Below, one piece after another: positions 9,841 to 54,062 of a DNA stretch of 64,000 bases. The stretch is taken from the NCBI GenBank assembly GCA_019749945.1, contig JAIEPF010000007.1, positions 62,001 through 126,000 on the forward strand, read 5' to 3'. The first letter of the stretch is position 1, and every line of letters starts with the position of its first letter. The notes below the pieces were generated by a model, which saw nothing but the letters and a program-made list of their open reading frames with translations, ran no database searches and was not told the origin of the DNA. The DNA is from Burkholderiales bacterium. Lineage in GTDB: Bacteria > Pseudomonadota > Gammaproteobacteria > Burkholderiales > SG8-41. The position numbers and the translations under genes were made by a program.

Positions 9841-10587
9841 ATGCTTGGCATCATTGGCGGCAGCGGCCTGAACCGGATCGCGGATCTTGAGGCGCCGCGG
9901 CGGGTAGTGATGACCACGCCCTACGGCGAACCCTCGGCGGCGCTGACCGTCGGCAGGCTGCACGGGCTTGAGGTGGTATTTCTCGCCCGCCATGGCGATG
10001 GTCACACCATCGCGCCGCACCGCATCAATTACCGCGCCAATATCCAGGCACTGCATGCGCAGGGTGTGCGCGATGTCATCGCGGTGGCGACGGTCGGCGG
10101 CATACGCGACGGGTTGAGCCCGGGCTCTCTGGTGGTGCCGGACCAGATCATCGATTACACCCATGGCCGGGAAACCACTTTTTTTGACGGTGTCGGGCAA
10201 GCGCTGCAGCATATTGATTTTACGCGGCCTTTCCGGGGCGAGATGCGCGGCAGGCTGCTGCGGGCCGGGGCGGCCGCGGGAGACGCCCTGCACGACGGCG
10301 GTGTTTATGGCGTAACGCAGGGCCCGCGACTGGAGACGGCTGCGGAGATCAATCGCATGGCGAACGACGGCGCCGATATCGTCGGCATGACCGGCATGCC
10401 GGAGGCGGCGCTGGCGCGCGAGATGGGACTCGATTACGCGATGCTGTGTGTGGTGGTCAACGCGGCGGCCGGACGCGGGGCCAATACTGACGGCGTGGCC
10501 ATGGCCGAAATCACGGCCGTGGCCGAAGCGGCGATGCGTCGCGTCGCGATTGTTCTTGCCGGAGTAGCGAGACAATATGGCCGTTAG
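9841..10587 (+). CDS. mtnP: S-methyl-5'-thioadenosine/thioinosine phosphorylase
   Basis: Phosphorolyses a methylthio-nucleoside, by-product of polyamine synthesis, to a free purine and methylthioribose-1-phosphate. The family pattern is visible in LGIIGGSGL at the N-terminus, [33 protein letters not shown] and [12 protein letters not shown]. About 248 residues from ATG 9841; an in-frame ATG at 9814 overlaps hpt. Its neighbour hpt accepts hypoxanthine, which would fit a thioinosine (MTIP) specificity, but I cannot settle adenosine versus inosine from sequence. The 3' end overlaps def by 11 bases. Confidence 0.85.
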
Positions 10588-11110
10588 ATCCGTATTGCGC
10601 ATGGGCGACGAACGGCTGTTGCGGATATCGCAGCCGGTGGAACGTTTTGATACGCCGGAACTGCATCAGTTGCTTGCCGACATGGAAGACACCATGCGTG
10701 CACTGAACGGCGCGGGGCTGGCCGCGCCGCAGATCGGGGTGCCTCTGCGCGTGGTCATTTTCGGCATCACCGCCAATCCGCGTTATCCGGATGCCGAGCC
10801 GGTGCCGCAGACCGTGCTGATCAATCCGGTGATCACGCCGCTGGACGCTGAGATGGACGAGGACTGGGAGGGCTGCCTGTCGGTGCCCGGCATGCGCGGG
10901 CTGGTGCCGCGCCACCTGCGCCTGCGTTACCGGGGTTTTGATGCCAGAGGTGCCGCGATCGACCGTACGGTTGGGGGTTTCCATGCGCGCGTGGTGCAGC
11001 ACGAATGCGATCACCTCGACGGCGTGCTGTATCCGATGCGCATCCGGGACCTGCGTGATTTCGGTTTTACCGAGGAATTGTTCCCCGGGCAGGATATCAA
11101 TGATGACTAA
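10577..11110 (+). CDS. def: Peptide deformylase
   Basis: Metalloenzyme that removes the N-formyl group from nascent proteins. The three family motifs are present: [10 protein letters not shown] (46-54), EGCLSVPG with metal-binding C100, and QHECDHLDG with H142, catalytic E143 and H146. Length 177 is typical. ATG 10577 lies inside the end of the phosphorylase gene, implying coupling. The gene is away from its common fmt partner, so it may be one of several deformylases in the genome. Confidence 0.95.
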
Positions 11111-11114
11111 GGGT

Positions 11115-11133
11115 GGCGACCGATGTTGTCGCC
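11115..11133. terminator. Hairpin between convergent def and glnD
   Basis: GGCGAC (11115-11120) pairs with GTCGCC (11128-11133) around a seven-base loop in the 35-base gap between convergent genes. There is no T-tract on either side, so it may only be a weak or Rho-assisted end. Confidence 0.3.
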
Positions 11134-11145
11134 TGAGTATGCAGG

Positions 11146-39878: not shown

Positions 39879-39894
39879 TGGCATGAATAATGCA
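39879..39894 (+). promoter_or_regulatory. Sigma-54 promoter of the Rieske/ABC operon
   Basis: TGGCATGAATAATGCA has GG (39880-39881) and GC (39892-39893) separated by exactly ten bases and agrees with TGGCACG-N4-TTGCA at all but two positions. Transcription would start near 39905, 46 bases before the first gene. Confidence 0.75.
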
Positions 39895-39950
39895 TGATTG
39901 TATCGGAACTGTTTTTCGCATTTTCGCCATTTACTGAAGGAAAATTCACC

Positions 39951-41159
39951 ATGTCCAAAACCGCAGCCCAATGGCATGAGACCCCCAAGTTTCCGTCCTC
40001 ACATTACGTCGACAGCCGCATCTACACCGACCAGCAACTGTTTGAGGAAGAACGCCAGCGAATTTTCAATAAAACCTGGTACATCGCGTGCCACGAATCG
40101 GAAATTCCGAACGCATTTGACTACCGCACTTTTCAGCATCCCGGTGGTACGCCGCTGATCATCGTGCGCGGTGAAGACATGAAGGTAAGGGCCTTCTACA
40201 ACATCTGCCCGCACCGCGGCAATACCTTGCTTTACGATCCCAGCGGCAATGCGAAACGGATTACCTGTATTTTTCATGCCTGGTCCTTCGATACGCAGGG
40301 CAACTGCACCGACATTTCGCGCGAAGAACAGGGATATCAAAAGCGATTCTGCAAGGCTGATGCAGGGCTGCGCGAAGTCAAGTCGGAGACGGGGTATGGC
40401 GGTTTCATCTGGGTCAATGTGGACGATAATTGTGTGCCGTTGAAGACATTTATCGGCGACGCAATGGGAGAACTCGACCCGTATATCGGCATGCCGCTGG
40501 AGGTATTTCACTATCATCGCGCGATCGTCGATACCAACTTCAAGCTGTGGCACGACACAAACAGCGAGTTTTATCACGACTACATGCATTACTTTAACCG
40601 GGTGACAGGCATGATGCAGCTCGGTTATTTTGACCGCAAATGCGTGGGTTACGACAACGGCCACGTACTGGTCGGATCGATGGAAATCAAATACGACGCT
40701 TATGCCGGCAGCAAAGAACGGGGCATTGGCTGGCCGGGACTTGCGCAGGGCGGCTGGATACTGATCGACCTGTTCCCCGGCATGACCTACAACCTGCGCA
40801 CTTCGGTGCTGCGCATGGACACGATGATCCCGTTGTCGCCCAACAAGGTGATGATCGAATATCGCGGACTGGGGTTGAAAAGCGACACTCCGGCTGAGCG
40901 TGCACAGCGCATTTTCGATCACAACACGATCTGGGGGCCCTTCGGCAGGAACCTTCACGAAGATCTGCTGGGTGTGCATGGCCAGGGCCGCGCCATGCGT
41001 CCCGGCACCGACAGCCGCTGGGTGCTGCAGGGGCGCGAGGAAAACTCGACCATTCATGACGAAGTCGGCATGCGGCACTATTATGCGGAGTGGAGCAGGC
41101 TGATGGGGCGCAAGGCATTTGATCCGTACGGCGAACGTCGCGTATCCGCGGCGGCGTAG
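39951..41159 (+). CDS. Rieske oxygenase, large (alpha) subunit
   Basis: Terminal oxygenase alpha subunit. The 402-residue product has the Rieske [2Fe-2S] ligands C86-x-H88 and C106-x2-H109 (17 residues between) and a mononuclear-iron triad best read as H209, H213 and D338 (EFYHDYMH; NLHEDLLG). The usual bridging Asp before the first His is Glu206, a feature also described for carnitine monooxygenase CntA. The adjacent small subunit and ABC/TauE genes recall methanesulfonate monooxygenase. However, MsmA is reported to have a 26-residue spacing, so it is not a plain MsmA. Substrate unknown; sulfonate or methylated amine are the main options. GAAGGAAAA precedes ATG 39951. Confidence 0.85.
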   Translation: MSKTAAQWHETPKFPSSHYVDSRIYTDQQLFEEERQRIFNKTWYIACHESEIPNAFDYRTFQHPGGTPLIIVRGEDMKVRAFYNICPHRGNTLLYDPSGNAKRITCIFHAWSFDTQGNCTDISREEQGYQKRFCKADAGLREVKSETGYGGFIWVNVDDNCVPLKTFIGDAMGELDPYIGMPLEVFHYHRAIVDTNFKLWHDTNSEFYHDYMHYFNRVTGMMQLGYFDRKCVGYDNGHVLVGSMEIKYDAYAGSKERGIGWPGLAQGGWILIDLFPGMTYNLRTSVLRMDTMIPLSPNKVMIEYRGLGLKSDTPAERAQRIFDHNTIWGPFGRNLHEDLLGVHGQGRAMRPGTDSRWVLQGREENSTIHDEVGMRHYYAEWSRLMGRKAFDPYGERRVSAAA

Positions 41160-41173
41160 AGGGAGCAAGGCTT

Positions 41174-41632
41174 ATGGACCGCACCACCATTCAGGACATG
41201 GTTTATCAGACCTGCCTGCTGCTCGATGACAAAAATTTCGATGCTTTTCTCGATTTGTGCGACGAAGGATTCCGCTATTCGATCACCACGCACAGCCCGG
41301 AAATTCGAAAAGACATGATCTGGCTGGATCATGACAAGAAGGGCATGCAAAACTTGTTTACCCAGTTGCCGCGCCATAACAGCGATCATTCTCCGATTAC
41401 GCGGCATGCCATTGTGTACAAGGTTGACGTAGACGAGGGGCGCAAGGAAGCGGATGTGGTGAGCGCGCTCCAGGTGTACAAAACCGATCTGGACGGCGGC
41501 GCGACGGCCCTGTTCGCGGTCGGCAAGTATGTCGATACGATCAGGTTCGAGGGCGGGAAACCGAAACTGGCCAAACGCGTCGTCAAGCTTGATACCAGGA
41601 TGCTGGGAATCGGTTACCACATTCCGTTTTGA
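41174..41632 (+). CDS. Oxygenase small (beta) subunit
   Basis: A 152-residue protein of the ring-hydroxylating-dioxygenase beta/SnoaL-like fold (cone-shaped alpha+beta barrel). It contains the acidic helix LLDDKNFDAFLDLCDEGFRY and ends LGIGYHIPF. Such subunits are structural partners of alpha3beta3 oxygenases. From memory it resembles the methanesulfonate monooxygenase small subunit more than aromatic dioxygenase beta subunits, but I cannot run the comparison. Fourteen bases after alpha with GAGGGAGCAAGG upstream of the ATG. Confidence 0.78.
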   Translation: MDRTTIQDMVYQTCLLLDDKNFDAFLDLCDEGFRYSITTHSPEIRKDMIWLDHDKKGMQNLFTQLPRHNSDHSPITRHAIVYKVDVDEGRKEADVVSALQVYKTDLDGGATALFAVGKYVDTIRFEGGKPKLAKRVVKLDTRMLGIGYHIPF

Positions 41633-41663
41633 TGCCATTCATCAGGACGGCTGCGGGCAGAAT

Positions 41664-42701
41664 ATGAAAATTCAAATCAATGCACGCAATCGTTCGTATC
41701 AATTCAACGTTGCGCAAGGTCAGCGCATCCTCTACGGCGGCCTGGCTGATGGCATACATCTGCCGTACGAATGCGGCAGCGGCACCTGCGGCACCTGCAA
41801 GGCGCGCGTGACTGCCGGCCAAATCGACGATTTGTGGCCGGAGGCACCGGGGCGCAGGTATCTGAAACAGCCGGGCGAATTTCTGATGTGTCAGTGCGTT
41901 GCGCGCGGTGATGTCAGCCTGGAAGTCACCAATTTTGTTTACACCATGGATCCGGGGGCGTGCCTGCCTTCGGCAGGCAGCGGTGTGGTGCGAAAACCGA
42001 GGTTGCTGACCCATGATGTCATTGCGTTTTCGGTTGACCTGGAATCCCCCTGCGATTTTGACGCCGGGCAGTTCATGATGATGCGGGTGCCGGGTGTTGC
42101 CGGCTATCGCGGCTATTCGATGGTCAATTTTGAGCGCGGCACAAAACGGCTGGACTTTCTGGTCAAGAAAAAACCCGGTGGTGAGGCGTCCGAATGGCTG
42201 TTCAGCGGCAACATCGAGGGCCAGTCCGTCGATTTGTTCGGTCCCCTGGGCGCGGCAACGTTTTTCCCTGCATTGGCCAAGAATCTGCTGCTGATCGCCG
42301 GTGGCAGCGGCATTGCGGGCATGATGTCCATACTTTCACGCGCCTGCCAGGAGCACTATTTTGACCAGTACAGCGGGCATGTGTTTTTTGGCGTGCGCAC
42401 CATGAAAGACGCTTTTTTTCTTGAGGAGTTGGCAGGATTCCAGAGGGAATTTCCGCAAAAACTTGCCGTGACCATCGCACTATCCGACGAAGATGTGCCT
42501 GTTGCAGCCACCGACCAGCCGGGGTTGATGATCGACCGTGGCTTTGTTCACGAGGTGGCGGCGCGTCACATGAAAGGCAAATACCAGAACATGCGTGCCT
42601 ACCTTGCAGGGCCGCCGCCGGCGGTTGATGCGGCGATTCGCGTGCTGCTGCTGGAGGCGAAATTGACGGCGGACAATATCCGCTATGACAAATTCAGTTG
42701 A
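41664..42701 (+). CDS. Oxygenase NADH:ferredoxin reductase component
   Basis: Electron-input component. N-terminal plant-type [2Fe-2S] domain with cysteines in ECGSGTCGTCKARV and a fourth in FLMCQCVA (about residues 36-80). Then an FAD-binding domain (about 100-200, YRGYSMVNF in the flavin-binding position) and an NAD-binding domain (LLLIAGGSGIAGMMSIL). 345 residues from ATG 41664, the size of known class reductases such as MsmD. It passes electrons from NADH to the Rieske ferredoxin encoded next, seven bases later. Confidence 0.88.
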   Translation: MKIQINARNRSYQFNVAQGQRILYGGLADGIHLPYECGSGTCGTCKARVTAGQIDDLWPEAPGRRYLKQPGEFLMCQCVARGDVSLEVTNFVYTMDPGACLPSAGSGVVRKPRLLTHDVIAFSVDLESPCDFDAGQFMMMRVPGVAGYRGYSMVNFERGTKRLDFLVKKKPGGEASEWLFSGNIEGQSVDLFGPLGAATFFPALAKNLLLIAGGSGIAGMMSILSRACQEHYFDQYSGHVFFGVRTMKDAFFLEELAGFQREFPQKLAVTIALSDEDVPVAATDQPGLMIDRGFVHEVAARHMKGKYQNMRAYLAGPPPAVDAAIRVLLLEAKLTADNIRYDKFS

Positions 42702-42708
42702 ACCTGCG

Positions 42709-43440
42709 ATGCCCAGAACATTGATATGCAAGCGCTCCGAAGTGCCGGAAAACGGGCTGAAAGAATGCGATGCGGAGGGCGGCCTTAAAGTGCTGATCGC
42801 CAGCGCAGGTGGTGAATATTTTGCGTGTCAGGCCATGTGCCCGCATCAGGATGTGCCCTTATGCGAAGGTCTTTATGATGGCGCGGTGCTGACCTGCCAC
42901 CAGCATCTGTGGCAATGGGACATACGCACCGGTGCGGCAATCGGCCTGGCCGAAGCGCCGCTCGAATGCTACAAAATCGAGATTGAGGATGATGCGATTT
43001 ACATCAATGCCGGCGGCGATGCGCTTGATGTGGGGGAACTTTTTTCAGGCGTCTCCGGAAAAACACTCGAAAGCATCAAAGCGCTGGCGCAGCGCCAGGA
43101 AATGCAGGCCGGTGGAACGCTTTACGGCGTCGGCGATCCGGCCGACGATTTTTTCATACTTGTGTCCGGACGCATTGAATTTGTGATCGGTCGTGATGAC
43201 CGCACCAGTCCCGCCGGCTTCATGCTGCGCAAAGGCGAGGTGTTCGGCTGGGCGGCGTTGCTCGACAGTCAGCCGCAGCGCATTGCAAAAGCGACATGTA
43301 TTGAACCTTCAGTACTGCTGCGGATCAACGGCAAACAAGCGCTCAAGGTTCTGGAGTCCGACCCGGCGGCCGGCTATGTCGTCATGCGCAGGCTGTCGTC
43401 GCTGATTGCCCGCTACCTGGCGCCGTCGGGAGCCAAATAA
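42709..43440 (+). CDS. Rieske ferredoxin fused to a CRP-like sensor domain
   Basis: A 243-residue two-domain protein. Residues 1-105 are a Rieske-type ferredoxin with C44-x-H46 and C63-x2-H66. Residues about 115-237 are a cyclic-nucleotide-binding-like beta-roll, with GEVFGWAALLDSQPQRIA at 176-193. In CRP the equivalent cassette has Glu for the ribose and Arg for the phosphate; here Arg (R191) stays but Trp stands in the Glu region. The same unusual cassette is in the permease at 44800 and the protein at 52679. An electron carrier carrying a ligand-sensing domain is unusual. An in-frame ATG at 42685 overlaps the reductase gene. Confidence 0.85.
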   Translation: MPRTLICKRSEVPENGLKECDAEGGLKVLIASAGGEYFACQAMCPHQDVPLCEGLYDGAVLTCHQHLWQWDIRTGAAIGLAEAPLECYKIEIEDDAIYINAGGDALDVGELFSGVSGKTLESIKALAQRQEMQAGGTLYGVGDPADDFFILVSGRIEFVIGRDDRTSPAGFMLRKGEVFGWAALLDSQPQRIAKATCIEPSVLLRINGKQALKVLESDPAAGYVVMRRLSSLIARYLAPSGAK

Positions 43441-43498
43441 CGTTCAACGTTCAAACAGAATTGGAGCTTGTTGAGGTGGTCCGGATTAAAGCTAAAAA

Positions 43499-43514
43499 AA
43501 TAACTTAAGTTATT
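43499..43514. promoter_or_regulatory. 16-bp perfect palindrome before the binding-protein gene
   Basis: AATAACTTAAGTTATT, 44 bases before ATG 43558 in a 117-base gap inside the operon. It overlaps copy C of the AT-rich motif (minus strand, 43506-43519). It could be an operator for an internal promoter; I see no good sigma-54 element here. Confidence 0.4.
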
Positions 43515-43519
43515 GTTTT
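43506..43519 (-). repeat. AT-rich intergenic motif, copy C
   Basis: On the minus strand AAAACAATAACTTA, matching copy D at 61785-61798 base for base and close to copies A and B. It overlaps the palindrome at 43499-43514. Confidence 0.4.
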
Positions 43520-43557
43520 AATTGGTATTTTTGCAGTGCCTACCAAAGGAGGTTGTG

Positions 43558-44688
43558 ATGAAACCTGTAAAACGTTTAGTACAGTTCCTGTGCGCCGCGT
43601 TTGTCGGTACGTTGTTCGTGCACAGTGCAAGCGCTGCAGATATTGATTTCGGCAAGCCCGGAACGCCGGTCAAACTCGTGATCGGTTACCAGCCGTATTA
43701 CACCCAGGCCTGGTCGGGGGTGGTCATGCGCGGCAAGAAGTTCTACGAAAAATATCTGCCCAAGGGTTCGGAAGTTGAATTCCAGATCGGTTTGCAGGGC
43801 GCCATCATCGTCAACAACATGCTGGCCGGGAAACAGCATATCGGCTACATGGGCGATATGCCTTCGATTGTATCGACCACCAAGCAGGAGGTGGCTGACG
43901 TTCGCATCGTCGGCACGCTGGGTCTTGGCCACGACCAGTGCAATATCTTTCTGGTGCGCACCGACGCTCCGAAATTCAACACTCCGGTTGATGCGATCAA
44001 ATGGCTGAATGGCAAGCAGGTTGCCGTGCCCAAGGGCAGTTGCACTGACCGTTATGCACAAGCCGTGTACAAGAAATACAACGTGCAGCCGGCAGCCTAT
44101 CTGAACCAGAACATCGAAGTGATCACGAGCAATTTCCGCGCCGGCAAGATTGATGCCGCAGTGATCTGGGAGCCCACGGCTTCGCGTCTGGTGCAGGAAG
44201 GCCTGGCGCGCAGGGCGGTTACCGGGGTGACGCCGCAGGAAAACGACGGCGGTTTTCTGGCGATGCGTGCTGATCTCATCAAGCAGCGTCCGGACATCGT
44301 CAAGGCCTGGATGAATGCCGAGCTCGACGCCCAGTTGTTCATTGCCGACAGCAAAAATGCCGCGGAGGTGATCAAGATCGCCAAAGAGCAGACCACGGGC
44401 TTTTCCGACAAGGTGCTGTGGAGTTCATTGTACGGTTCGTATGGTGCAGACCAGGACGGCAGCAAGGTGCGCAATCAATTGCACTACACCATTACGCCCC
44501 AGGCCCGCGAACTGCTTACCCGCGCCACGGCCTTCCTGTTTGAAATCAAGAGCATCAACACAGCCACGCTGCGCCCGGAGGCAGTCATGCCTGAATTTGC
44601 CGATGCGGTGCTCAAAGAGCGCAATCTCAAGGCGCCAATCGGTGTTGTGAATGCCCTGCCGGAATCCGCGTTCAAACCATTGAATTGA
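43558..44688 (+). CDS. ABC transporter periplasmic binding protein, SsuA/TauA-like
   Basis: Captures the imported substrate in the periplasm. The 376-residue product has a signal peptide (about 1-28, ending ASA-AD), then the NMT1/SsuA-type two-lobe fold: VIGYQPYYTQAWSG, LAGKQHIGYMGDMPS, GKQVAVPKGSCTDRYA and KIDAAVIWEPTASRL. This fold is used for aliphatic sulfonates, taurine, nitrate and pyrimidine precursors. A very strong AAAGGAGG precedes the ATG, which fits the excess of binding protein over membrane parts. It is the only binding protein for two permeases and two ATPases downstream. Confidence 0.9.
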   Translation: MKPVKRLVQFLCAAFVGTLFVHSASAADIDFGKPGTPVKLVIGYQPYYTQAWSGVVMRGKKFYEKYLPKGSEVEFQIGLQGAIIVNNMLAGKQHIGYMGDMPSIVSTTKQEVADVRIVGTLGLGHDQCNIFLVRTDAPKFNTPVDAIKWLNGKQVAVPKGSCTDRYAQAVYKKYNVQPAAYLNQNIEVITSNFRAGKIDAAVIWEPTASRLVQEGLARRAVTGVTPQENDGGFLAMRADLIKQRPDIVKAWMNAELDAQLFIADSKNAAEVIKIAKEQTTGFSDKVLWSSLYGSYGADQDGSKVRNQLHYTITPQARELLTRATAFLFEIKSINTATLRPEAVMPEFADAVLKERNLKAPIGVVNALPESAFKPLN

Positions 44689-44691
44689 ACC

Positions 44692-44732
44692 AGGCAGAAG
44701 GCCGGCTGGCAGCAGGGCCGGCCTGGCTGCCT
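44692..44732 (+). terminator. Large hairpin between binding protein and permease
   Basis: Two stacked stems: AGGCAG (44692-44697) with CTGCCT (44727-44732), and AGGCCGGC (44699-44706) with GCCGGCCT (44717-44724), followed by CTTTATT. The short T content suggests partial termination or 3'-end protection that keeps binding-protein mRNA in excess. Confidence 0.5.
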
Positions 44733-44799
44733 CTTTATTGGTGTGTTCTGGATTGCATGTACATGCATGCCCAGAGCTTAACGAAGAAAGTAATCGTTG

Positions 44800-46143
44800 A
44801 TGGAACCGGGCGCACAGTCAGTCGAGGTTGAACAGATGCTGGAAATTCTCAAGAAAACGATGCCGTTTCAGATGGTGTCGGATGTCCTGTTGCGCAGGAT
44901 CGCCGCGTTAGGCAGGCAGTCAGTCTGCGAGCGCGGAACGGTGTTATATGATTTCGGCGACAAAGCTGACGATATTTACATCGTCATCTCGGGCAGCGTC
45001 GAACACACGCTCGAGGCGGGCGTGAATGCGCGTCGTCCGGTGCAGGCGCTCGGACCAGGCGATGTTTTTGGATGGGCGGCACTGCTGGAGAAATACCCTC
45101 ACCGCCTGGCGAAAGCCGTGGTGATCGATAAAGCCGTGATTGTACGCATAAACGGCGACGAGTTGCTGCGTTTGCTGGAAGCAGATCCTGATGCCGGCGA
45201 TGTGGTCATGAGCCGTTTTGCCACCATGATCACGCGCGATTACACGGTGCCGGATCTGATCGCGCAAATGCGGGGAATTCACCGCAAGATGCATTCGCAG
45301 GACATCCAGGGGATGAATCTCACGCTGTACCGTATCTCGCAATGGATCAAGAGTCCGCGGCCATACCTGATGGTGATCGGAATCGCGCTATTCCTCAGCA
45401 CCTGGTATTTTTTTGTCGAAGTCTGGAAGTTACCGCGGTTTCAGGAGATGCCGGGACTCACGGTTGTTTTCAAGGAGTGGCTGAACCCGAATCCGGTTTA
45501 CGGACTGTCACTTTATACCGCGGAATATTACAAACACATAGGCGTCAGCATCTGGAGGGTTGCCCAGGCTTTTTTCCTGGCAACGGCGCTGGGTGTTCCG
45601 CTTGGATTGTTTTTGGGGTGGTCACGGAAATTCAAGGAATACGTGTTTCCGGTATTTGAAACGCTGCGCCCGATTCCGATACTGGCCTGGGTACCGCTGG
45701 CAATCGTCATGTTCATTGCGACTGAATCGGCGGTCATTTACCTGACATTTCTTGCATCGTTTTTTGCAACCGCACTCAATACCATGCTGGGAGTGGAATC
45801 GATCGAAGAATCCTACACTCGTGCCGCCTACTGCCTCGGCGCCAAAAAATGGCAGGTTTTCAAACATGTCATTGTTCCCGGCGCACTGCCTTTCATTTTT
45901 ACCGGCCTGCAGATATCCATCGGTGTGGCATGGTTTTCCCTGGTCGCCGCGGAAATGGTTTCCGGGCAATACGGTCTGGGCTATGTCATCAACACGTCCT
46001 ACACCATGGTCCGTTATCCGACCATCATTATCGGCATGGTCACGCTTGGGGCGGTGGGTTATATCACCAGCGCCATGGTGCGCATTCTGGGCGATTACCT
46101 CATGCAATGGCGTGTGCGTGAGCTCGCGCTCGGGGGGCAATAG
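44800..46143 (+). CDS. ABC permease with N-terminal CRP-like sensor domain
   Basis: A 447-residue fusion. Residues about 12-145 form a cyclic-nucleotide-binding-like domain (FGDKADDIYIVISG; cassette GDVFGWAALLEKYPHRLAKA at 87-106, R102 kept, Trp in the Glu region). Residues about 185-440 are a SsuC/TauC-type permease with six or so membrane segments and the ATPase-docking loop RAAYCLGAKKWQVFKHVIVPGALPFIF. Ordinary SsuC/TauC permeases lack the N-terminal domain, so transport may be gated by a cytoplasmic ligand. ATG 44800 is chosen over TTG 44797. Abuts the next ATPase gene without a gap. Confidence 0.88.
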   Translation: MEPGAQSVEVEQMLEILKKTMPFQMVSDVLLRRIAALGRQSVCERGTVLYDFGDKADDIYIVISGSVEHTLEAGVNARRPVQALGPGDVFGWAALLEKYPHRLAKAVVIDKAVIVRINGDELLRLLEADPDAGDVVMSRFATMITRDYTVPDLIAQMRGIHRKMHSQDIQGMNLTLYRISQWIKSPRPYLMVIGIALFLSTWYFFVEVWKLPRFQEMPGLTVVFKEWLNPNPVYGLSLYTAEYYKHIGVSIWRVAQAFFLATALGVPLGLFLGWSRKFKEYVFPVFETLRPIPILAWVPLAIVMFIATESAVIYLTFLASFFATALNTMLGVESIEESYTRAAYCLGAKKWQVFKHVIVPGALPFIFTGLQISIGVAWFSLVAAEMVSGQYGLGYVINTSYTMVRYPTIIIGMVTLGAVGYITSAMVRILGDYLMQWRVRELALGGQ

Positions 46144-47004
46144 ATGAAAACCCCGGGACAGGACATGCCATCAGCCACTGCAGTAACCCGAGGCGCCATC
46201 AAGATCGATGATGTCGTCAAGATTTATGACCCCGAAGGCGCCGCAGTGATGGCGGTTGATCATTGCTCGCTGGACATCGCCGCAGGGGAAATCTGCATGA
46301 TTGTCGGACCTTCGGGCTGCGGTAAAACGACGCTGCTCAACGCCATTGCCGGTTTTCACGAAATCACTTCCGGGCGCATTCTGCTTGATGGTGAAGTGTT
46401 GTGCAGCACGGAGAAACCGAAGGCTGAGCCGGGTTCCGATCGTATCGTCGTATTCCAGAATGGAGCCTTGTTTCCCTGGAAAACCAATCTCGAGAATGTC
46501 GCATTCGGGCCGATCATGCAGGGGAAGCTCTCGCGTGTGGAAGCCCATGAGAAAGCGCTGTCAATGATGGCGGATGCGGGATTGTCGGGGGTCGAGCACA
46601 ATTACCCGGGGGAGGTGTCCTCGGGCATGCGCCGCAGGGTGGAGATCGTGCGGGCGCTGATGAACGATCCCAAGGTGCTGCTGCTTGATGAGCCTTATCG
46701 TGCCCTCGATTCATTGACCAAATCGGTAATGCACGAGGCTTTGCTGGAAATTTATTACCGCAACAAAGTGACCATATTCTTCATCACTCATGATCTGGAA
46801 GAGGCCATTTTCCTGGGCCACAAGGTGGCGATCATGACGACGCGGCCATGCAAGCCGAAGAAGGTGCTTGAAGTGGATATTCCGCACCCGCGGGATTACA
46901 GCGTACTGACCTCAAAACGGTTCCGTGAGTTGATCGAGGAGACGAACGAGGCGGTGCATGAAGAAGCGTTGAAGGCGTTTGCCGCAGGCGAAAAAGAGGG
47001 CTGA
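46144..47004 (+). CDS. ABC ATPase 1 with degenerate signature motif
   Basis: SsuB/TauB-type ATPase, 286 residues. Walker A GPSGCGKTT (55-63), Q-loop VVFQNGALFPWKT, Walker B LLLDEP with E183, and H-loop FFITHD with H216 are intact. The signature, normally LSGGQ, is VSSGMR (158-163). ATPase 2 downstream has the opposite pattern, canonical signature but no H-loop histidine. Paired head to tail they would form one competent and one degenerate ATP site. Three bases before permease 2. Confidence 0.9.
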   Translation: MKTPGQDMPSATAVTRGAIKIDDVVKIYDPEGAAVMAVDHCSLDIAAGEICMIVGPSGCGKTTLLNAIAGFHEITSGRILLDGEVLCSTEKPKAEPGSDRIVVFQNGALFPWKTNLENVAFGPIMQGKLSRVEAHEKALSMMADAGLSGVEHNYPGEVSSGMRRRVEIVRALMNDPKVLLLDEPYRALDSLTKSVMHEALLEIYYRNKVTIFFITHDLEEAIFLGHKVAIMTTRPCKPKKVLEVDIPHPRDYSVLTSKRFRELIEETNEAVHEEALKAFAAGEKEG

Positions 47005-47007
47005 GCG

Positions 47008-47877
47008 ATGGCAGGCAGAAAATGGGGCGGTACATTACTTTGGCGCGGAGTGGCGTCAATCACGGTATTTCTCGTATTTTGGGAAATTGGATCGCTCTCC
47101 AAGGTTTGGCTGAAATGGGAGACGTTTGCCTGGTTGAAGGAGATGCTGGTATCGATAGGCTGGACCAAGAACTATCTGCCGTGGATCGGTGCGGTTCCGG
47201 CGCCGACGGAAGTGCTGCTTGCGTGGGGCAAGGTGATTGACGACGTTGGTTATTGGCATAGCTGGTATATGAGCTGCCTCCGTGTCCTGGGCGGTTTCAT
47301 TGCCGCGATGGTCATCGGCATTCCATTCGGATTGCTGCTGGCGGTTAATCGCACCGCATTCGGGATCGGATTTCCGGTGTTCGAAGTGCTGCGACCGATC
47401 CCGCCGCTGGCCTGGGTGCCGGCATCGATCATCTTCTGGCCAACACAGGAATTGTCGATCGCGTTTGTGACTTTTCTGGGGGCGTTTTATACCATCGTGA
47501 TCAACGTCATCGGAGGGGCGCGCTCGATCGACACGCGATACTTTCAGGCCGCGCAAAGCATGGGCTCCTCATCCTGGGATATTTTCCGGCGCATCATCCT
47601 TCCCGGCACCCTGCCTTCCATCGTGGTTGGTTCTGCGGTGGGCATGGGTATTACCTGGGAGGTCGTGGTTGCCGCGGAAATGATCTCCGGCGGCGGCAGC
47701 CAGATCGGCGGCACCAGCGGTGGCGGATTGGGGTTCTTCATCTGGAATTCCTATGTCGGCGGATCGTATGAACAAATCGTGGTCGGCATGATCAGCATCG
47801 GCATCGCAGGTTTCATTTCCAGTGAGTTGCTGCGCACACTGGGTCACCGCGTTACACCGTGGCTGCGCCTGCGTTAA
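47008..47877 (+). CDS. ABC permease 2, SsuC/TauC-like
   Basis: A 289-residue integral membrane protein with about six membrane segments and the conserved permease loop AAQSMGSSSWDIFRRIILPGTLPSIVVG. It has no CRP-like extension, unlike permease 1. A Gly/Ser-rich stretch GGGSQIGGTSGGGLG precedes the last helices. It presumably pairs with permease 1 in a heterodimeric channel; a separate homodimeric importer is less likely because there is only one binding protein. Confidence 0.9.
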   Translation: MAGRKWGGTLLWRGVASITVFLVFWEIGSLSKVWLKWETFAWLKEMLVSIGWTKNYLPWIGAVPAPTEVLLAWGKVIDDVGYWHSWYMSCLRVLGGFIAAMVIGIPFGLLLAVNRTAFGIGFPVFEVLRPIPPLAWVPASIIFWPTQELSIAFVTFLGAFYTIVINVIGGARSIDTRYFQAAQSMGSSSWDIFRRIILPGTLPSIVVGSAVGMGITWEVVVAAEMISGGGSQIGGTSGGGLGFFIWNSYVGGSYEQIVVGMISIGIAGFISSELLRTLGHRVTPWLRLR

Positions 47878-47889
47878 TGGGAGTCGGAC

Positions 47890-48762
47890 ATGAATGAAGG
47901 CAAGGTTGTCAAACCGAAGATAGAGGCCGGTGAAATTGTTGTTGAGAACGTGGATAAATTCTACGGCGACCATCATTTTCGCAAGGAGGTGGTCAAGGAT
48001 TGCTCGTTCAAGATCGAGCGAGCCAAGCTCACAGTGATGATCGGTCCTTCGGGCTGCGGAAAGTCAACCCTGATTCGTTTGCTGGCGGGTTTTGAAAAAC
48101 CGAGCGCCGGGGTCATTACCATCGACGGCAAACCGATCGACGGACCAGGACGCGAACGGCTGGTGCTGTTCCAGGAAACGGCGTTGTTCCCGTGGATGAC
48201 CACCTACGACAACATTCTCTACGGGCCCCGCGCGCGCGGCGAGCTTACAAAAGAGACCCTGGAACTCGCCGAATTCCTGCTGTCCAAAGTCGGGCTCAAG
48301 GAGTTTCGCAAAAAATATCCCACCCAGCTTTCGGGCGGGATGCAGCGGCGAGCCGAACTTGCGCGTGCCATGATCAACAATCCACGGATCATGATTCTTG
48401 ACGAACCGTTCCGCGGGCTTGATGCGATGACCAAGGAGCTGATGTGGGAGTATTACTCGGCGCTGTATGAGGAGAACCGCCGCACGAATTTTTTTGTGAC
48501 CACCGATATCGACGAAGCCATCTTTCTGGCGGATCGTTTGCTCATCATGTCGAATATCCCGACCCAGGTCAGGGCGGTGCTCGAGGTGGATATACCGCGG
48601 CCGCGAAAACTCACGGATATCGTCGAGAATGATCGCGCCAACGAGATCAAGATGCAGGCATTGTCGATTCTGCATGAAGAGGCGATGAAGTCATTTTCCC
48701 GGGGCAGCAAGGCTGCGGCTGATTTTGTCGAGGCTTACTCAAAACGCTCCGCCAAGGCATGA
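47890..48762 (+). CDS. ABC ATPase 2 lacking the H-loop histidine
   Basis: A 290-residue SsuB/TauB-type ATPase. Walker A GPSGCGKST (52-60), Q-loop VLFQETALFPWMT, canonical signature LSGGMQ (147-152) and Walker B ILDEP with E172. The switch histidine is Thr205 (FFVTTDIDEA instead of VTHD). This complements the broken signature of ATPase 1. The C-terminal 40 residues resemble those of ATPase 1 (LEVDIPRPRKL versus LEVDIPHPRDY), so the pair likely arose by duplication. It overlaps the small gene downstream by four bases. Confidence 0.9.
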   Translation: MNEGKVVKPKIEAGEIVVENVDKFYGDHHFRKEVVKDCSFKIERAKLTVMIGPSGCGKSTLIRLLAGFEKPSAGVITIDGKPIDGPGRERLVLFQETALFPWMTTYDNILYGPRARGELTKETLELAEFLLSKVGLKEFRKKYPTQLSGGMQRRAELARAMINNPRIMILDEPFRGLDAMTKELMWEYYSALYEENRRTNFFVTTDIDEAIFLADRLLIMSNIPTQVRAVLEVDIPRPRKLTDIVENDRANEIKMQALSILHEEAMKSFSRGSKAAADFVEAYSKRSAKA

Positions 48763-48953
48763 GCATCATCGACAGCCTGCTGACGCGGGAGGCGATGATC
48801 GCGCTGGCGGTGCTGGGCGCAATTGCATCCACAGCGGCAACCGCATTACGCCCCAGGCTTGGCGAACACCGGGCGCGCCATATGGACTATGCCGGTTACG
48901 GTTGCATGGCCGCCAGCATGCTTGTTTTTATCATCAACGGTTTTCGTTCCTGA
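48759..48953 (+). CDS. Small membrane protein, 64 residues
   Basis: Not recognised. Two hydrophobic segments (about 11-30 and 43-60) flank a short basic/polar loop, RPRLGEHRARHMDYAG. ATG 48759 overlaps the stop of ATPase 2 (ATGA), which supports a real, translationally coupled gene. It could be an accessory subunit of the importer or an unrelated membrane protein. Confidence 0.65.
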   Translation: MSIIDSLLTREAMIALAVLGAIASTAATALRPRLGEHRARHMDYAGYGCMAASMLVFIINGFRS

Positions 48954-49000
48954 GTTTGCCGAAGCTTGGCGGACGCTGACCGCACACGGATTATCCGACC

Positions 49001-49888
49001 ATGACCGCAAAAATCATCGACGGCAACGCTGTTGCCAGACACGTCCGGCAGGAATGGAAAAAACGCGCGGACGCACTCAGGGCGGACGGCGTGATTCCCG
49101 GACTTGCCGTCATCATCATCGGCGACAACCCGGCGTCAAAAGTGTACGTGCGCAACAAAGTCAGGGCCTGTGCCGAAGTGGGATTGCATTCGGAAGTCCA
49201 TGAGTTTCCGGCGGCGGTTGACCCTGATGAAGTGATCCGCCGCATTCAGGAGCTCAATCGAAACGCGGCAATCCACGGCATTCTGGTGCAGTTGCCGCTC
49301 CCCCCGCATCTGGAATCACGCAAGCTGCTGGGGGAGATTGATGTTGACAAGGATGTGGACGGTTTCCACCTCTATAACGTGGGCGGGCTGGTGGTCGGGG
49401 AAAACAATATTTTTCCGCCATGCACGCCGTATGGCGTGCAGCGTTTGCTGGAATACGAAGGTATTCCGATCGAGGGGCAGAACGTGGTGGTGGTGGGCGC
49501 AAGCAATATCGTCGGCAAACCGATGGGATTGATGCTGATGGCAAAAGAAGCCACGGTGTCCATCTGCCATATCAAAACGCGCGATCTGGCGCAATACACC
49601 ATATTGGCCGACATCCTGGTGGTCGCGGCAGGCTGCCCCAATCTGATTACGGCACCCATGGTCAAACGCGGCGCGGTGGTCATTGATGTCGGGATCAACC
49701 GGCTGCCTGACGGCCGTCTTGCCGGCGATGTTGATTTTGAGCGGGTCAAGGAAAAGGCCGGCTATATCACCCCGGTTCCCGGCGGCGTGGGACCGATGAC
49801 AGTGACCATGCTGATATGCAATACTGTGGCGGCTGCAGAACGCAATGCCGCCAAAAATGCCGAAAACAAAAGCCCCGTCACCATTTAA
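49001..49888 (+). CDS. folD: Methylene-THF dehydrogenase/cyclohydrolase, copy 1
   Basis: Bifunctional enzyme oxidising 5,10-methylene-THF to methenyl-THF and hydrolysing it to 10-formyl-THF. Catalytic Tyr and Lys are in VYVRNKVRACAEVG, Gln in GILVQLPLP, Asp in DKDVDGFH; NADP-binding VVVVGASNIVGKPMGLML; end block TPVPGGVGPMTVTML. 295 residues. It lies downstream of the oxygenase and importer genes on the same strand and directly precedes a second folD, so it probably serves C1 units released by the pathway. Confidence 0.95.
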   Translation: MTAKIIDGNAVARHVRQEWKKRADALRADGVIPGLAVIIIGDNPASKVYVRNKVRACAEVGLHSEVHEFPAAVDPDEVIRRIQELNRNAAIHGILVQLPLPPHLESRKLLGEIDVDKDVDGFHLYNVGGLVVGENNIFPPCTPYGVQRLLEYEGIPIEGQNVVVVGASNIVGKPMGLMLMAKEATVSICHIKTRDLAQYTILADILVVAAGCPNLITAPMVKRGAVVIDVGINRLPDGRLAGDVDFERVKEKAGYITPVPGGVGPMTVTMLICNTVAAAERNAAKNAENKSPVTI

Positions 49889-49904
49889 CCGCCTTTTCTG
49901 ATTC

Positions 49905-50798
49905 ATGCCCGCCCGGATTCTCGACGGCGCGGCGATAGCCCGTCACATCTATACCAGCCTTGCCCCGCGTATTGCCGCACTTGATCAGCGCGGCGTGCAG
50001 CCGGGGCTTGCCGCCCTGCAAATCGGTGATAACGCGGCGTCGCAAATCTATGTGCGCAACAAAGTCCGTGCCTGTACTGAAATCGGCATCCATTCCGAGG
50101 TTCACCGGCTGGCTGCGGATTGCACGGAGGCTGCGGCGCTCAAAATACTGGAGAAACTCAATCGCAGCCCGCGCCTGCATGGCGTCATTGTGCAGTTGCC
50201 GTTGCCGTCCGGCCTTGATGCCCGGCGATTGCTGCAGTCGGTCGCCGCGGAAAAGGATGTGGACGGGTTCAACCGGGACAATCTGGGCGCACTGGTCGAT
50301 GCCCGCAGGGGATTGGTGCCTTGCACGCCGTTGGGCGTGATGGCGATGCTCGACGATGCCGGCATCGCGATCGAGGGCCGGCATGCCGTGGTCATCGGCC
50401 GCAGCACCAGCGTCGGCAAACCGATGGCTTTGCTGCTGATCAATCGCGGTGCGACAGTCACGGTGTGTCACTCGAAAACGCAGGATCTGGCAACCCATGC
50501 CGCACGCGCCGATATTCTCATTGCAGCAGCGGGGCGCGCAGGTCTGGTGACGGCGGACATGGTCAAGCCTGGCGCCGTGGTGATTGACGTCGGCATCAAC
50601 CGCATGCCGGACGGCAAACTTGCCGGGGATGTGGCTTTTGCGTCGGTTAGTGAGCGGGCATCGTGGATTACGCCGGTGCCGGGCGGGGTGGGGCCGATGA
50701 CCGTGGCCATGCTCATCGCCAACACGGTAACTGCGGCGGAACGTATTGCAGACACGCAGATGTTTTCTGCGGCCGTTCAGGACGCTCTCACGAAGTAA
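49905..50798 (+). CDS. folD: Methylene-THF dehydrogenase/cyclohydrolase, copy 2
   Basis: Second FolD, 297 residues, 16 bases after copy 1 and by eye roughly half identical to it. All catalytic blocks are kept: IYVRNKVRACTEIG, GVIVQLPLPSG, EKDVDGFNRDN, IGRSTSVGKPMALLL, TPVPGGVGPMTVAML. The divergence suggests different cofactor or direction preference (dehydrogenase versus cyclohydrolase bias) rather than a recent copy for dosage. Its end faces the GcvT-like gene, three bases away. Confidence 0.94.
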   Translation: MPARILDGAAIARHIYTSLAPRIAALDQRGVQPGLAALQIGDNAASQIYVRNKVRACTEIGIHSEVHRLAADCTEAAALKILEKLNRSPRLHGVIVQLPLPSGLDARRLLQSVAAEKDVDGFNRDNLGALVDARRGLVPCTPLGVMAMLDDAGIAIEGRHAVVIGRSTSVGKPMALLLINRGATVTVCHSKTQDLATHAARADILIAAAGRAGLVTADMVKPGAVVIDVGINRMPDGKLAGDVAFASVSERASWITPVPGGVGPMTVAMLIANTVTAAERIADTQMFSAAVQDALTK

Positions 50799-50801
50799 TT
50801 G

Positions 50802-51899
50802 TTAACAGGCCCTGGGCTCCCGCGGCAGGTGTCTGCCGGGGTCATAAAACGGCAGGCGTGTGACGCGCGCCGATACGCCTTTTGCGACAGTGACCCGCGA
50901 GCCCGGATGGCGGTCGGCCGTCGCGACATAACCCAGCCCAAGCACGCGTTTGAATAACGGTGAACGGCACAGGCTGGTAATCACCGTTGATGATGTTGCT
51001 GCAGCCGCGGCGGACGTCATCAGACTGCCGGGATCCGCGTCCTCTGCCATTTCCGGCAGGAGCCCGACCAGCCGCCTCGCAGGTTGTTGCCAGCGTAATC
51101 GGCGCAATTCAAATAAACCAATAAAATCAATTGGATACATATCAACCAGGCGGGATAATCCCAATTCGAACGGCGTGACCGGAATTGCCAGTTCACGCGT
51201 GAACAGCAGGTATCCGGCTTCGATCCGCAGTGTGTCGACGGCGTCGAATCCGCATTCCATCAATCCCTGCGCTGCGCCCGCCCGGCGCAGCGTTTCCCAC
51301 AGTGCCGGCCCGTCTTGTGCGCGTACGATGATTTCATAACCCGATTCGCCGCTGTAGCCGATGCGCGATACCCAGCATGCAGCGCCGGCAAATCGGGCGG
51401 ACCAGCAGTCGAAGTAGGACAGGCGTGCGGGCAGGTCGGCCAGGCAGGCGCCAACAATGACGGATGAGCGGGGACCCTGTACGGCAATGACTGCGTGATC
51501 ATCCGAGCGGTCGGAGATGGTGACGTCAAAATTCCGGGCGATACCGCGCACATGCTCCATATCGGCGCGGCGCCCGATGAACAGCGCATAACGCCCGGCG
51601 GCGACCGCCCATACCGTGGCGTCGGTGAGTACGGTGCCGTCCCCGCGCAGCAGCAGCGTGTAGGCGATGCGGCCGGTGCGCAGTTGTGCGAGGTTGCGCG
51701 TCTGCAGGCGATGCAAAAAAGCGAGGCTGTCGGGGCCGCTGACGTCAGCGCAGGCCATGAACGAGAAATCGAACAGGCCTGCCGCGCGCCGTGTCGCCAG
51801 ATGCTCTGCGGCGGGATCTGTAAAGCGCTGCGGCGTATATATCCCCGGCGCGAGCTCGATCCGGCGGATTCCGCGCATCCCGAAATACTGTTGCAGCAC
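50802..51899 (-). CDS. GcvT-like aminomethyltransferase-family protein
   Basis: T-protein fold of the glycine cleavage/DmdA/YgfZ superfamily, which uses or binds tetrahydrofolate. Blocks: DFSFMACADVSGPDSLAFLHRLQTRNL split over about 44-70, YALFIGRRADMEHV, RIGYSGESGYEIIV and GFDAVDTLRIEAGYLLF. In the position where T-proteins have GGxxDD the sequence is DGTVLTD, so folate chemistry may differ. No GcvH or GcvP nearby, so not a glycine cleavage unit. GTG 51899 (365 residues) has GGGGCAGG upstream; ATG 51878 is possible. Last gene of the minus-strand arm. Confidence 0.78.
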   Translation of the reverse strand: MLQQYFGMRGIRRIELAPGIYTPQRFTDPAAEHLATRRAAGLFDFSFMACADVSGPDSLAFLHRLQTRNLAQLRTGRIAYTLLLRGDGTVLTDATVWAVAAGRYALFIGRRADMEHVRGIARNFDVTISDRSDDHAVIAVQGPRSSVIVGACLADLPARLSYFDCWSARFAGAACWVSRIGYSGESGYEIIVRAQDGPALWETLRRAGAAQGLMECGFDAVDTLRIEAGYLLFTRELAIPVTPFELGLSRLVDMYPIDFIGLFELRRLRWQQPARRLVGLLPEMAEDADPGSLMTSAAAAATSSTVITSLCRSPLFKRVLGLGYVATADRHPGSRVTVAKGVSARVTRLPFYDPGRHLPREPRAC

Positions 51900-51916
51900 G
51901 GCGCCTGCCCCGGGAC

Positions 51917-52675
51917 CTAGAACCACCCGAGCGCGCGTGCGATCAGATAGATCCCGACCACGATGCACAATACCGTGACGAATTTCCGCAGCGAATCCGC
52001 ATTGACGGCATGTACGATGCGGGCGCCGAGAAACACGCCGGCGATTTCCAGCACCGTCACCACGCCGGCAATGCCGAAGTTGATCGTGCCGAACTGCAGG
52101 TTACCCAGCGTCCCCGAAGCGGCGGCAATGATCTGGATGACCTGGCTGGTGCCGATGGCGGCGAGTGCCGGAAAACCGAACAGCACCATCATCGGCACTG
52201 ACAAAGCGGGGCCGCCAACGCCGGTGAGTCCGGAGCCGAAGCCCGCTGCCGCGCCTATGCCCAGGAGCAGGCCTTGCTGTGCCTGCGGGCGATCGTGCAG
52301 CGCCGGCTGCTGCATTCCGCGCCATGTTGCGAGCGTGTAGACACCGGCAAAAATGATGATGCCGGCCAGTATCAGCGCGAGCATCAAAGGTCGGGTGAGC
52401 GAATTCATCCATGCCCCGAGAAAAGCGCAGAGCACGGCGCCGGCGCATACCGGTGCGGTGATGCGCCAGTCAATGCTGCCGCGGCGCTGGAACAGAACGG
52501 TGCCGGTGATGCCGGTAAAGATGAAGGTGAAGAGGGCGGTTGCCATTGCTTCGTGGATACCGAGACCGGCGAACGCCGAGAGCGCCGGGATCAACAGCAC
52601 GCCGCCGATGCCGACGGCGCCGATCAGCGCGCCGACGATAAAAGCGGTCGGTGCAAGCAGCAGCCAGTCGGTCAA
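51917..52675 (-). CDS. TauE/SafE-family anion exporter
   Basis: Polytopic membrane protein, 252 residues, about eight hydrophobic segments. The duplicated family motif is visible as GALIGAVGIGGVLLIPAL near the N-terminus and GFGSGLTGVGGPALSVPMMVLFG in the second half. Family members export sulfite or sulfoacetate during sulfonate degradation, or carry other anions. Next to an SsuA-like importer and a Rieske oxygenase this is the best hint that sulfite is a product. It follows the CRP-like gene after three bases. Confidence 0.88.
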   Translation of the reverse strand: MTDWLLLAPTAFIVGALIGAVGIGGVLLIPALSAFAGLGIHEAMATALFTFIFTGITGTVLFQRRGSIDWRITAPVCAGAVLCAFLGAWMNSLTRPLMLALILAGIIIFAGVYTLATWRGMQQPALHDRPQAQQGLLLGIGAAAGFGSGLTGVGGPALSVPMMVLFGFPALAAIGTSQVIQIIAAASGTLGNLQFGTINFGIAGVVTVLEIAGVFLGARIVHAVNADSLRKFVTVLCIVVGIYLIARALGWF

Positions 52676-52678
52676 ATG

Positions 52679-53143
52679 TTATCCGGAAGCAAAAGACGTG
52701 AGATTGCCGGTAATCAACATGTTCAACTGTTGCATGATGCGGTAGCCCATTGTGTGATCCTGGTCCATGAGCACCAGCAGCTGGTCGCCGTTGATGGCGA
52801 TCACCGTGCAGGCAGTGATGGCGAGTGCGGCGGCAATGCGCTGTGGGGCATTTTCCACCAGTGCTGCCCAGCCAAACAGTTCGCCACGCTTGAGAATCTG
52901 GCCGGCGTGCGTCTGGCGGCTGCCGAGACCGATGGTGAAGCGCACCATGCCGTCAACCAGCACATAAAAATCGGCCGCGTTGTCGCCGAGGCCGTAGATG
53001 CGGTTGTTCTGCGGATAATGCTCGATGCGACCGAGCGCGGACACCCGCCTGATCTGCTGCTGCGTCAGTGCACTGAAAAACGCCGTCTGCGCGAGAATGT
53101 CCGCACAGTCGGCGTGGTCAGAGAGCGCGTCAGGCGGACTCAT
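52679..53143 (-). CDS. Stand-alone CRP-like sensor domain protein
   Basis: 154 residues, almost only a cyclic-nucleotide-binding-like domain (YGLGDNAADFYVLVDG; cassette GELFGWAALVENAPQRIA at 87-104). No DNA-binding helix-turn-helix follows, so it is not a Crp/Fnr repressor or activator as such. It is the third copy of the Trp-type cassette in this locus; the Arg is at residue 102, the same number as in the permease fusion. It may report the same ligand to a partner protein. Confidence 0.82.
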   Translation of the reverse strand: MSPPDALSDHADCADILAQTAFFSALTQQQIRRVSALGRIEHYPQNNRIYGLGDNAADFYVLVDGMVRFTIGLGSRQTHAGQILKRGELFGWAALVENAPQRIAAALAITACTVIAINGDQLLVLMDQDHTMGYRIMQQLNMLITGNLTSFASG

Positions 53144-53156
53144 GGGAATTCCGCAG

Positions 53157-54062
53157 TTACTTGCCCACGGGGAAACGCTGGTTCGGATTGCCTTTCCAGC
53201 CGACCAGTTCGGCGAACTTCTTCAGTTCATCGTCTTTCATGTAAACCGAATGCTCCTTGCCGGGGTAGATGCGCTTGCGTACTTCATCGCGATAATCCGT
53301 GAGGCCTTTTTCGATGATCGGCACCAGATCGACATAAATCTTGGAATGGCGCGGCACGTGTTTTTCATAAAGATGGAACAGGTCGGAGCCGATGATGTGA
53401 ACGCCGTCGGCCTGATTGCCTGCGCCGAGGCTGATGACCGGCACCGGCAGCACTTCGGAGAGGTACTGGCAGACTTCCGCCGTCGTCACCTCGCACATGA
53501 TCGAGAAACAACCGGCATCCACCATCGCCCAGGCGTCATCCACCAGTTCCTTGGCGCGGTCCGCCGTCTTGCCCTGCGCGACAAAACCGCCCAGTTGCGG
53601 CATGCGCATGGGCGTAATGCCGATATGGCCCTGCACCGGAATACCGGCCTTGACGATGGCTTCGATGTATTTCGCGTGGTGTTGATTGCCTTCGCATTTC
53701 ATGACTTCTGCACCGGCCTGCGACACGTACTTGGCTGCGTTATCCACGGCCTGCTGGGCCGACAAATGGAAGCTCATGTAAGGCATATCCACCATGCGCA
53801 GCCCGTACTGTGATCCGCGCTTGACGGCTTGTGCCATGAACATGACTTCTTCGAACGAAACCGAGGTGGTGCTTTCGTGACCGAAGAGCACCATGCCGCC
53901 GGTGTCGGACACACAAAGAATATCGACCCCGACCCGGTCGGCGATGATCGCCGTCTCGTAGTCGTACACCGCGAGCTGGACGATGGGTTCTTTATTCTCG
54001 CGTTTCTTGTTCAGCGACGGGATGGTTACTTTTTTGCGTTTTTCGGCAGCTGCTTCAGCCAT
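53157..54062 (-). CDS. PanB-like (ketopantoate hydroxymethyltransferase family) enzyme
   Basis: TIM-barrel enzyme of the PanB family, 301 residues. By alignment from memory with E. coli PanB the metal ligands and base are kept: D53 (VSDTGGM), D92 (VDMPYM), E124 (KCEGNQ), E191 (MCEVTT). PanB adds the methylene group of 5,10-methylene-THF to a 2-oxo acid. The sequence is clearly diverged, panC is absent, and it leads the sigma-54 arm with TauE and GcvT-like genes, so a pathway-specific role (possibly the reverse, folate-loading reaction) is inferred. AAGGAGGG precedes the ATG. Confidence 0.8.
   Translation of the reverse strand: MAEAAAEKRKKVTIPSLNKKRENKEPIVQLAVYDYETAIIADRVGVDILCVSDTGGMVLFGHESTTSVSFEEVMFMAQAVKRGSQYGLRMVDMPYMSFHLSAQQAVDNAAKYVSQAGAEVMKCEGNQHHAKYIEAIVKAGIPVQGHIGITPMRMPQLGGFVAQGKTADRAKELVDDAWAMVDAGCFSIMCEVTTAEVCQYLSEVLPVPVISLGAGNQADGVHIIGSDLFHLYEKHVPRHSKIYVDLVPIIEKGLTDYRDEVRKRIYPGKEHSVYMKDDELKKFAELVGWKGNPNQRFPVGK

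Follow-up and report, generated by a model that had tools for sequence, protein, structure and literature searches.

Within the 64,000-nucleotide stretch of Burkholderiales bacterium DNA analysed here (the window), one permease of a NitT/TauT-type ABC importer carries on its N terminus an intact CRP-like domain (cNBD), a type that as a rule detects small molecules, and sister domains with the same Trp/Arg pocket sit on a Rieske ferredoxin and on a free-standing protein of the same gene cluster (Table 1). We read the permease-borne copy as a tethered cytoplasmic module that would sense a ligand common to the three domains, other than a cyclic nucleotide, and tune both import and the supply of electrons to the oxygenase encoded alongside. 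The probability that we attach to this reading is roughly 0.45.

Table 1 Features of the fusion and its gene cluster (window positions unless residues are stated).
Feature	Position	Strand	Assignment and remarks
Rieske ring-hydroxylating oxygenase alpha subunit	39894..41159	+	PF00355 + PF00848
Oxygenase beta subunit	41174..41632	+	PF00866
Oxygenase reductase	41664..42701	+	Fer2 + FAD + NAD domains; ORF from 41529
Rieske [2Fe-2S] ferredoxin with C-terminal sister cNBD, 251 aa	42685..43440	+	PF00355 + PF00027; 189 bits, subfamily HMM
Substrate-binding protein, SsuA/NMT1 family	43558..44688	+	PF13379/PF09084, TIGR01728 SsuA_fam; ORF from 43522
cNBD-permease fusion, 447 aa (likely start)	44800..46143	+	Pfam PF00027 + PF00528, AlphaFold2, Foldseek
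Permease-borne cNBD, FGWAALLEKYPHRLAKA pocket cassette	44827..45258	+	Trp/Arg conservation; PF00027
Layout of the fusion protein	residues: cNBD ~10-147, linker 148-170, amphipathic helix 171-184, permease TM region 186-444		
ATPase 1	46144..47004	+	PF00005; H-loop His present, degenerate signature VSSGM for LSGGQ
Permease 2, no extra domain	47008..47877	+	PF00528
ATPase 2	47890..48762	+	PF00005; canonical LSGG signature, H-loop His replaced by Thr
FolD paralogues, tandem	49001-49888, 49905-50798	+	ORFs and family matches, neighbourhood
GcvT-like (opposing arm)	50802-51968	-	
TauE/SafE-like (opposing arm)	51917-52675	-	
Free-standing sister cNBD, 154 aa (opposing arm)	52679..53143	-	PF00027 51.1 bits; 176 bits, subfamily HMM
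PanB-like (opposing arm)	53157-54062	-	

The frame of the fusion, 44797–46143(+), has no stop anywhere and opens with the codons TTG ATG, which makes ATG 44800 the likely start. On this single chain Pfam places cNMP_binding (PF00027) at residues 44–128 (51.6 bits against a cut-off of 27.5, E 9e-14) and BPD_transp_1 (PF00528) at residues 265–434 (89.5 bits, cut-off 26.4); all 57 relatives match PF00027. AlphaFold2, given the fusion protein and 56 relatives, predicts residues 10–147 well (pLDDT mostly 89–94, with dips of 72–83) as a jelly-roll. This fold, the Pfam score above the gathering cut-off and a Foldseek match to 3mdp (TMt 0.84), alongside matches to PKG/PKA domains, assign the region to the cNBD superfamily. 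The permease part is best matched by CmpB/NrtB, and BPD_transp_1 with a substrate-binding protein and an ATPase in the same operon, whose gene order is conserved, identifies a type I importer permease of the SsuC/TauC/NrtB class. The original prediction of a CRP-like fold on a permease N terminus is thus borne out, the fold being intact, conserved and in frame with the permease. Its soluble stretch ahead of the first membrane helix is present too but was underestimated at about 145 residues: the AlphaFold2 model has about 185, with TM1 near residues 186–208.

The linker (~150–170) is of low confidence, falling below pLDDT 50 at residues 161–169. Mean pLDDT for the whole model is 83.6 and pTM 0.56, so the model does not fix where the cNBD lies with respect to the permease. 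NrtB-type topology would put the cNBD on the cytoplasmic side. As modelled, the flexible linker seems to offer no obvious rigid allosteric path to the coupling helices, which counts against a role in transport control.

A frameshift, an assembly fusion or an internal start at about M165 that leaves the cNBD unmade could mimic this architecture, and clean unfused orthologues do begin near that point. We estimated dN/dS from three close, unsaturated pairs (dS being saturated at greater distance). Values for the cNBD lie between 0.11 and 0.16 (window–L053, 0.144; L054–L055, 0.108; L058–L056, 0.163), and those for the permease core between 0.03 and 0.08. The cNBD also evolves faster than the core, with dN of 0.07–0.56 versus 0.014–0.16 in the TMD. 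Purifying selection therefore indicates in-frame translation of the domain under constraint, weaker than that on the membrane part, and speaks against the internal start yielding the sole product. Translation from within the gene, named from the outset as the observation that would undo the proposal, is hence unlikely for a domain that is in frame, conserved and selected. With the identical fusion found in many independent assemblies, one of them a single-contig genome, we regard an artefact as extremely unlikely.

The same combination of cNBD and BPD_transp_1 recurs in 23 other genome records and in the single-contig genome G330. The scan of genome records comprised 80 loci in total, 23 of which, besides the window, have the fused permease; about six more fused relatives, the one in G330 among them, lie outside these records. 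Carriers in the scan are mostly Burkholderiales and other Betaproteobacteria; some are Gammaproteobacteria, one record belongs to the Acetobacteraceae, and one carrier is the isolate Glaciimonas immobilis DSM 23240. Among 399 genomes sampled from the same order, nine (six families; one, G330, a single contig) have a match spanning the cNBD; in a phylum-wide sample of 399 such matches were confined to the window's own genome and G330. Recurrence in many genome records and in G330 places the fusion beyond chance or misassembly. In a search of 72,556 plasmid records the only match covering more than 80% of the query, from Paracoccus versutus, was rejected as two adjacent permease genes. For the MAGs with loci L060, L061 and L075, record titles (Anaerolineales, Bordetella parapertussis) look unreliable, their clusters being of betaproteobacterial type.

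In trees, cNBDs sort by host gene: permease-borne copies form one clade (support 84/79), separate from those of the ferredoxin-borne and free copies. The permease cNBD thus seems to have been gained once, which this clade supports though not firmly. On the permease core tree the fused label changes 7 times versus 21 in shuffles, a count that includes the truncated L074. That locus was rejected as a loss, its contig beginning inside the linker. By sequence comparison the domain has been lost cleanly in two close relatives, L075 and L076 (met again as L044 and L045), where nothing separates the stop of the substrate-binding protein gene from the start of a short permease. These permeases are orthologous to fused ones (84–85% identical), and L076 is the sister of fused L057 with support of 100/95. 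Other loci show further arrangements. L059 encodes a permease with two tandem, Pfam-confirmed N-terminal cNBDs (9887–11812); in L049, where the transporter is paralogous and has a FolD gene nearby, a cNBD lies on the N terminus of ATPase 1 (2325–3593); and in L108, L118 and L126 the permease is unfused and a free cNBD lies beside the oxygenase reductase. Polynucleobacter and other clusters have the same oxygenase and pump with no cNBD at all. The cNBD is therefore dispensable, judging by L075, L076 and the cNBD-less clusters, and this counts against our preferred reading.

The surrounding cluster (39894–54062) combines a three-component Rieske oxygenase set (alpha, beta, reductase, ferredoxin) and the importer with PanB-like, GcvT-like, TauE/SafE-like and two FolD genes. 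It is widespread across Proteobacteria and apparently undescribed so far; in the openly licensed literature we found no description of an oxygenase/PanB/GcvT/FolD gene set. The neighbourhood of the opposing arm (50802–54062) is conserved in relatives. The start of the substrate-binding protein gene, ATG 43558, is preceded by an AGGAGG-like site; scanning this part of the DNA for promoters and terminators did no better than shuffles. The binding protein weakly resembles taurine, nitrate, bicarbonate and sulfonate binders, and the oxygenase is about equally close to several aromatic and carnitine enzymes; release of one-carbon units by the pathway is likely. In L056, L058 and L066 a second oxygenase alpha and beta pair, about 50–60% identical, adjoins the main set. 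In this set a cNBD goes with the oxygenase, being present at 27 of 47 loci with it versus 6 of 34 without (Fisher p 0.0005, relatedness among loci being uncorrected), and five of those six sit on short contigs.

The permease, ferredoxin and free cNBDs score 176–189 bits against a subfamily HMM. Other copies in the genome reach at most 58 bits and have GE or FNR-like cassettes, none a GW cassette. Searched against the PDB, the free cNBD matched nothing at E 1e-8. Across 63 copies (permease, ferredoxin, free and ATPase) the pocket cassette follows the consensus FGWAALLxxxPxRxAxA. In CRP the pocket Glu contacts the ribose and the Arg contacts the phosphate. Here 62 of the 63 copies have Trp at the Glu position and one has Phe, the Arg follows ten residues later in all 63, and the next residue is Ile, Leu or Val, with Met, Phe and a gap once each. 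The spacing of ten is that of Glu and Arg in E. coli CRP (E72/R82/S83 in CRP numbering). On the permease the Trp and Arg are W92 and R102.

Fold, Pfam family and the retained R82 equivalent would suit a canonical cAMP or cGMP sensor linking the importer to carbon catabolite control. The pocket is non-canonical, however, with Trp for E72 and a hydrophobic residue for S83, and cyclic nucleotides are therefore unlikely ligands of the three domains, as judged from these substitutions. Family 2B encapsulins likewise have divergent CBDs, for which cyclic-nucleotide binding is reported to be absent (PMC12407261). We hold the canonical sensor to be highly unlikely. Of the intact sensor fold that had been proposed, the CRP-type fold stands, and a CRP-type cyclic-nucleotide sensor is not what the pocket residues describe. 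A pocket shared by the cNBDs of permease, ferredoxin and free protein suggests that they have a ligand in common, although it could serve protein binding instead. The sister domains, natural losses and ATPase fusion of the paralogous system together identify a pathway-wide module, not a transporter-specific invention.

The pump itself appears asymmetric. Relatives of ATPase 1 have VSSG(M/V/L) in place of LSGGQ and keep the H-loop His (78/78), and those of ATPase 2 keep LSGG with the His replaced by Thr or Ser (72/72). The lesions, conserved on both sides, map by sequence to one shared composite site, as in a heterodimeric ABC protein with one degenerate site. Because they are complementary, the two ATPases probably form an obligate heterodimer within an asymmetric heteromeric pump. 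With two distinct permeases as well, we infer one cNBD copy per pump. The same asymmetric lesions are present in relatives without any cNBD. Descriptions of heterodimeric ABC importers with degenerate sites were not found in the openly licensed literature.

This stoichiometry bears on the main rival to our reading, in which the cNBDs bind each other, no ligand being needed, and keep the ferredoxin close to the importer, letting substrate be oxidised on entry. Such a scaffold would suit three related domains on separate proteins of one pathway, about one copy per asymmetric pump with its partner surface left free, the tandem duplicate on the L059 permease and the flexible tether predicted by AlphaFold2. 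Against it, the invariant pocket Trp and Arg suggest a bound ligand and not merely a surface, and the permease cNBD persists where the ferredoxin has none (L061), the reverse holding in L076. We consider docking a minority possibility. An accessory domain without sensing, serving folding, stability or membrane targeting or being a near-neutral insertion kept by history, would fit at least two losses with no replacement, the faster evolution of the cNBD and a linker that is poorly conserved among distant relatives. Clear purifying selection, a pocket invariant over more than 50% sequence divergence and the recurrence of this subfamily within the pathway, both fused to the ferredoxin and as a separate gene, speak against it, and we judge it unlikely.

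The sensing-module reading can be put as a sequence of steps. The cNBD would hang by its flexible linker from TMD1 of an asymmetric heteromeric NrtB/TauC-type importer. Permease, ferredoxin and free copies would respond to one shared signal of the pathway, a small and probably anionic molecule other than a cyclic nucleotide; the substrate, the product or a one-carbon metabolite are candidates. Binding on the permease cNBD would bias the transport cycle and binding on the ferredoxin cNBD would adjust electron delivery to the oxygenase, matching uptake and turnover. We infer both the class of ligand and the control of transport. A single metabolite that controls uptake and electron supply by acting allosterically on several proteins together is a more tentative proposal, to which one Trp/Arg-pocket subfamily on permease and ferredoxin, and the cNBD on a paralogous ATPase, point.

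The system offers a natural experiment: some orthologous pumps have the cNBD and others, at about 84% identity, do not, one relative has two copies, and a sister domain sits on the ferredoxin. Two questions thereby become directly testable: which ligand fits the Trp/Arg pocket of such a CRP-fold domain, and whether import can be gated by a domain that the permease carries. Knowing the ligand would also shed light on further uncharacterised and divergent CNB domains, among them those of encapsulins and MFS transporters. In the openly licensed literature we found neither an ABC importer permease described with a cNBD nor a cNBD–Rieske fusion.

A few ABC importers are known to be controlled post-translationally, through a regulatory domain on the ATPase; that of MetN belongs to the ATPase side. 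Importers with cytoplasmic regulatory domains include MetNI (C2) and OpuA, whose CBS domains are stated to be on the NBD (PMC10710835). The fusion differs in carrying another fold on the permease N terminus, which sets it apart from the trans-inhibition class with its regulatory domain on the ATPase; only the paralogous L049 has a cNBD on ATPase 1. CNBDs are likewise fused to MFS transporters, a different transporter class, where they are mentioned as possible regulatory domains with no worked-out role (PMC10710835). The family 2B encapsulin CBD shares the Pfam fold, a weak similarity (NCBIfam NF041163) and a divergent pocket, but is inserted in a shell protein with no link to a transporter. 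CRP, PKA and PKG share the cNBD fold and the Arg at CRP spacing; here the ribose Glu is Trp, the Ser/Ala after the Arg is Ile, Leu or Val, and there is no DNA-binding domain or kinase. The nearest solved permeases are CmpB (9ua0/9ua1, TM 0.81–0.82) and NrtB (8wm7/8wm8), at about 30% identity, and the nearest solved ATPases are CmpD and NrtD. NrtBCD and CmpBCD also use two different ATPases, and the title of a PDB entry describes NrtBCD bound to the signalling protein PII. Their solved permease chains, however, are about 250–265 residues long with no extra domain, their NrtC/CmpC ATPase is much longer (665–690 aa), and NrtD/CmpD keep SGG and His in alignments. The importer described here instead has complementary lesions in its two ATPases, two permeases and a cNBD on the N terminus of one of them.
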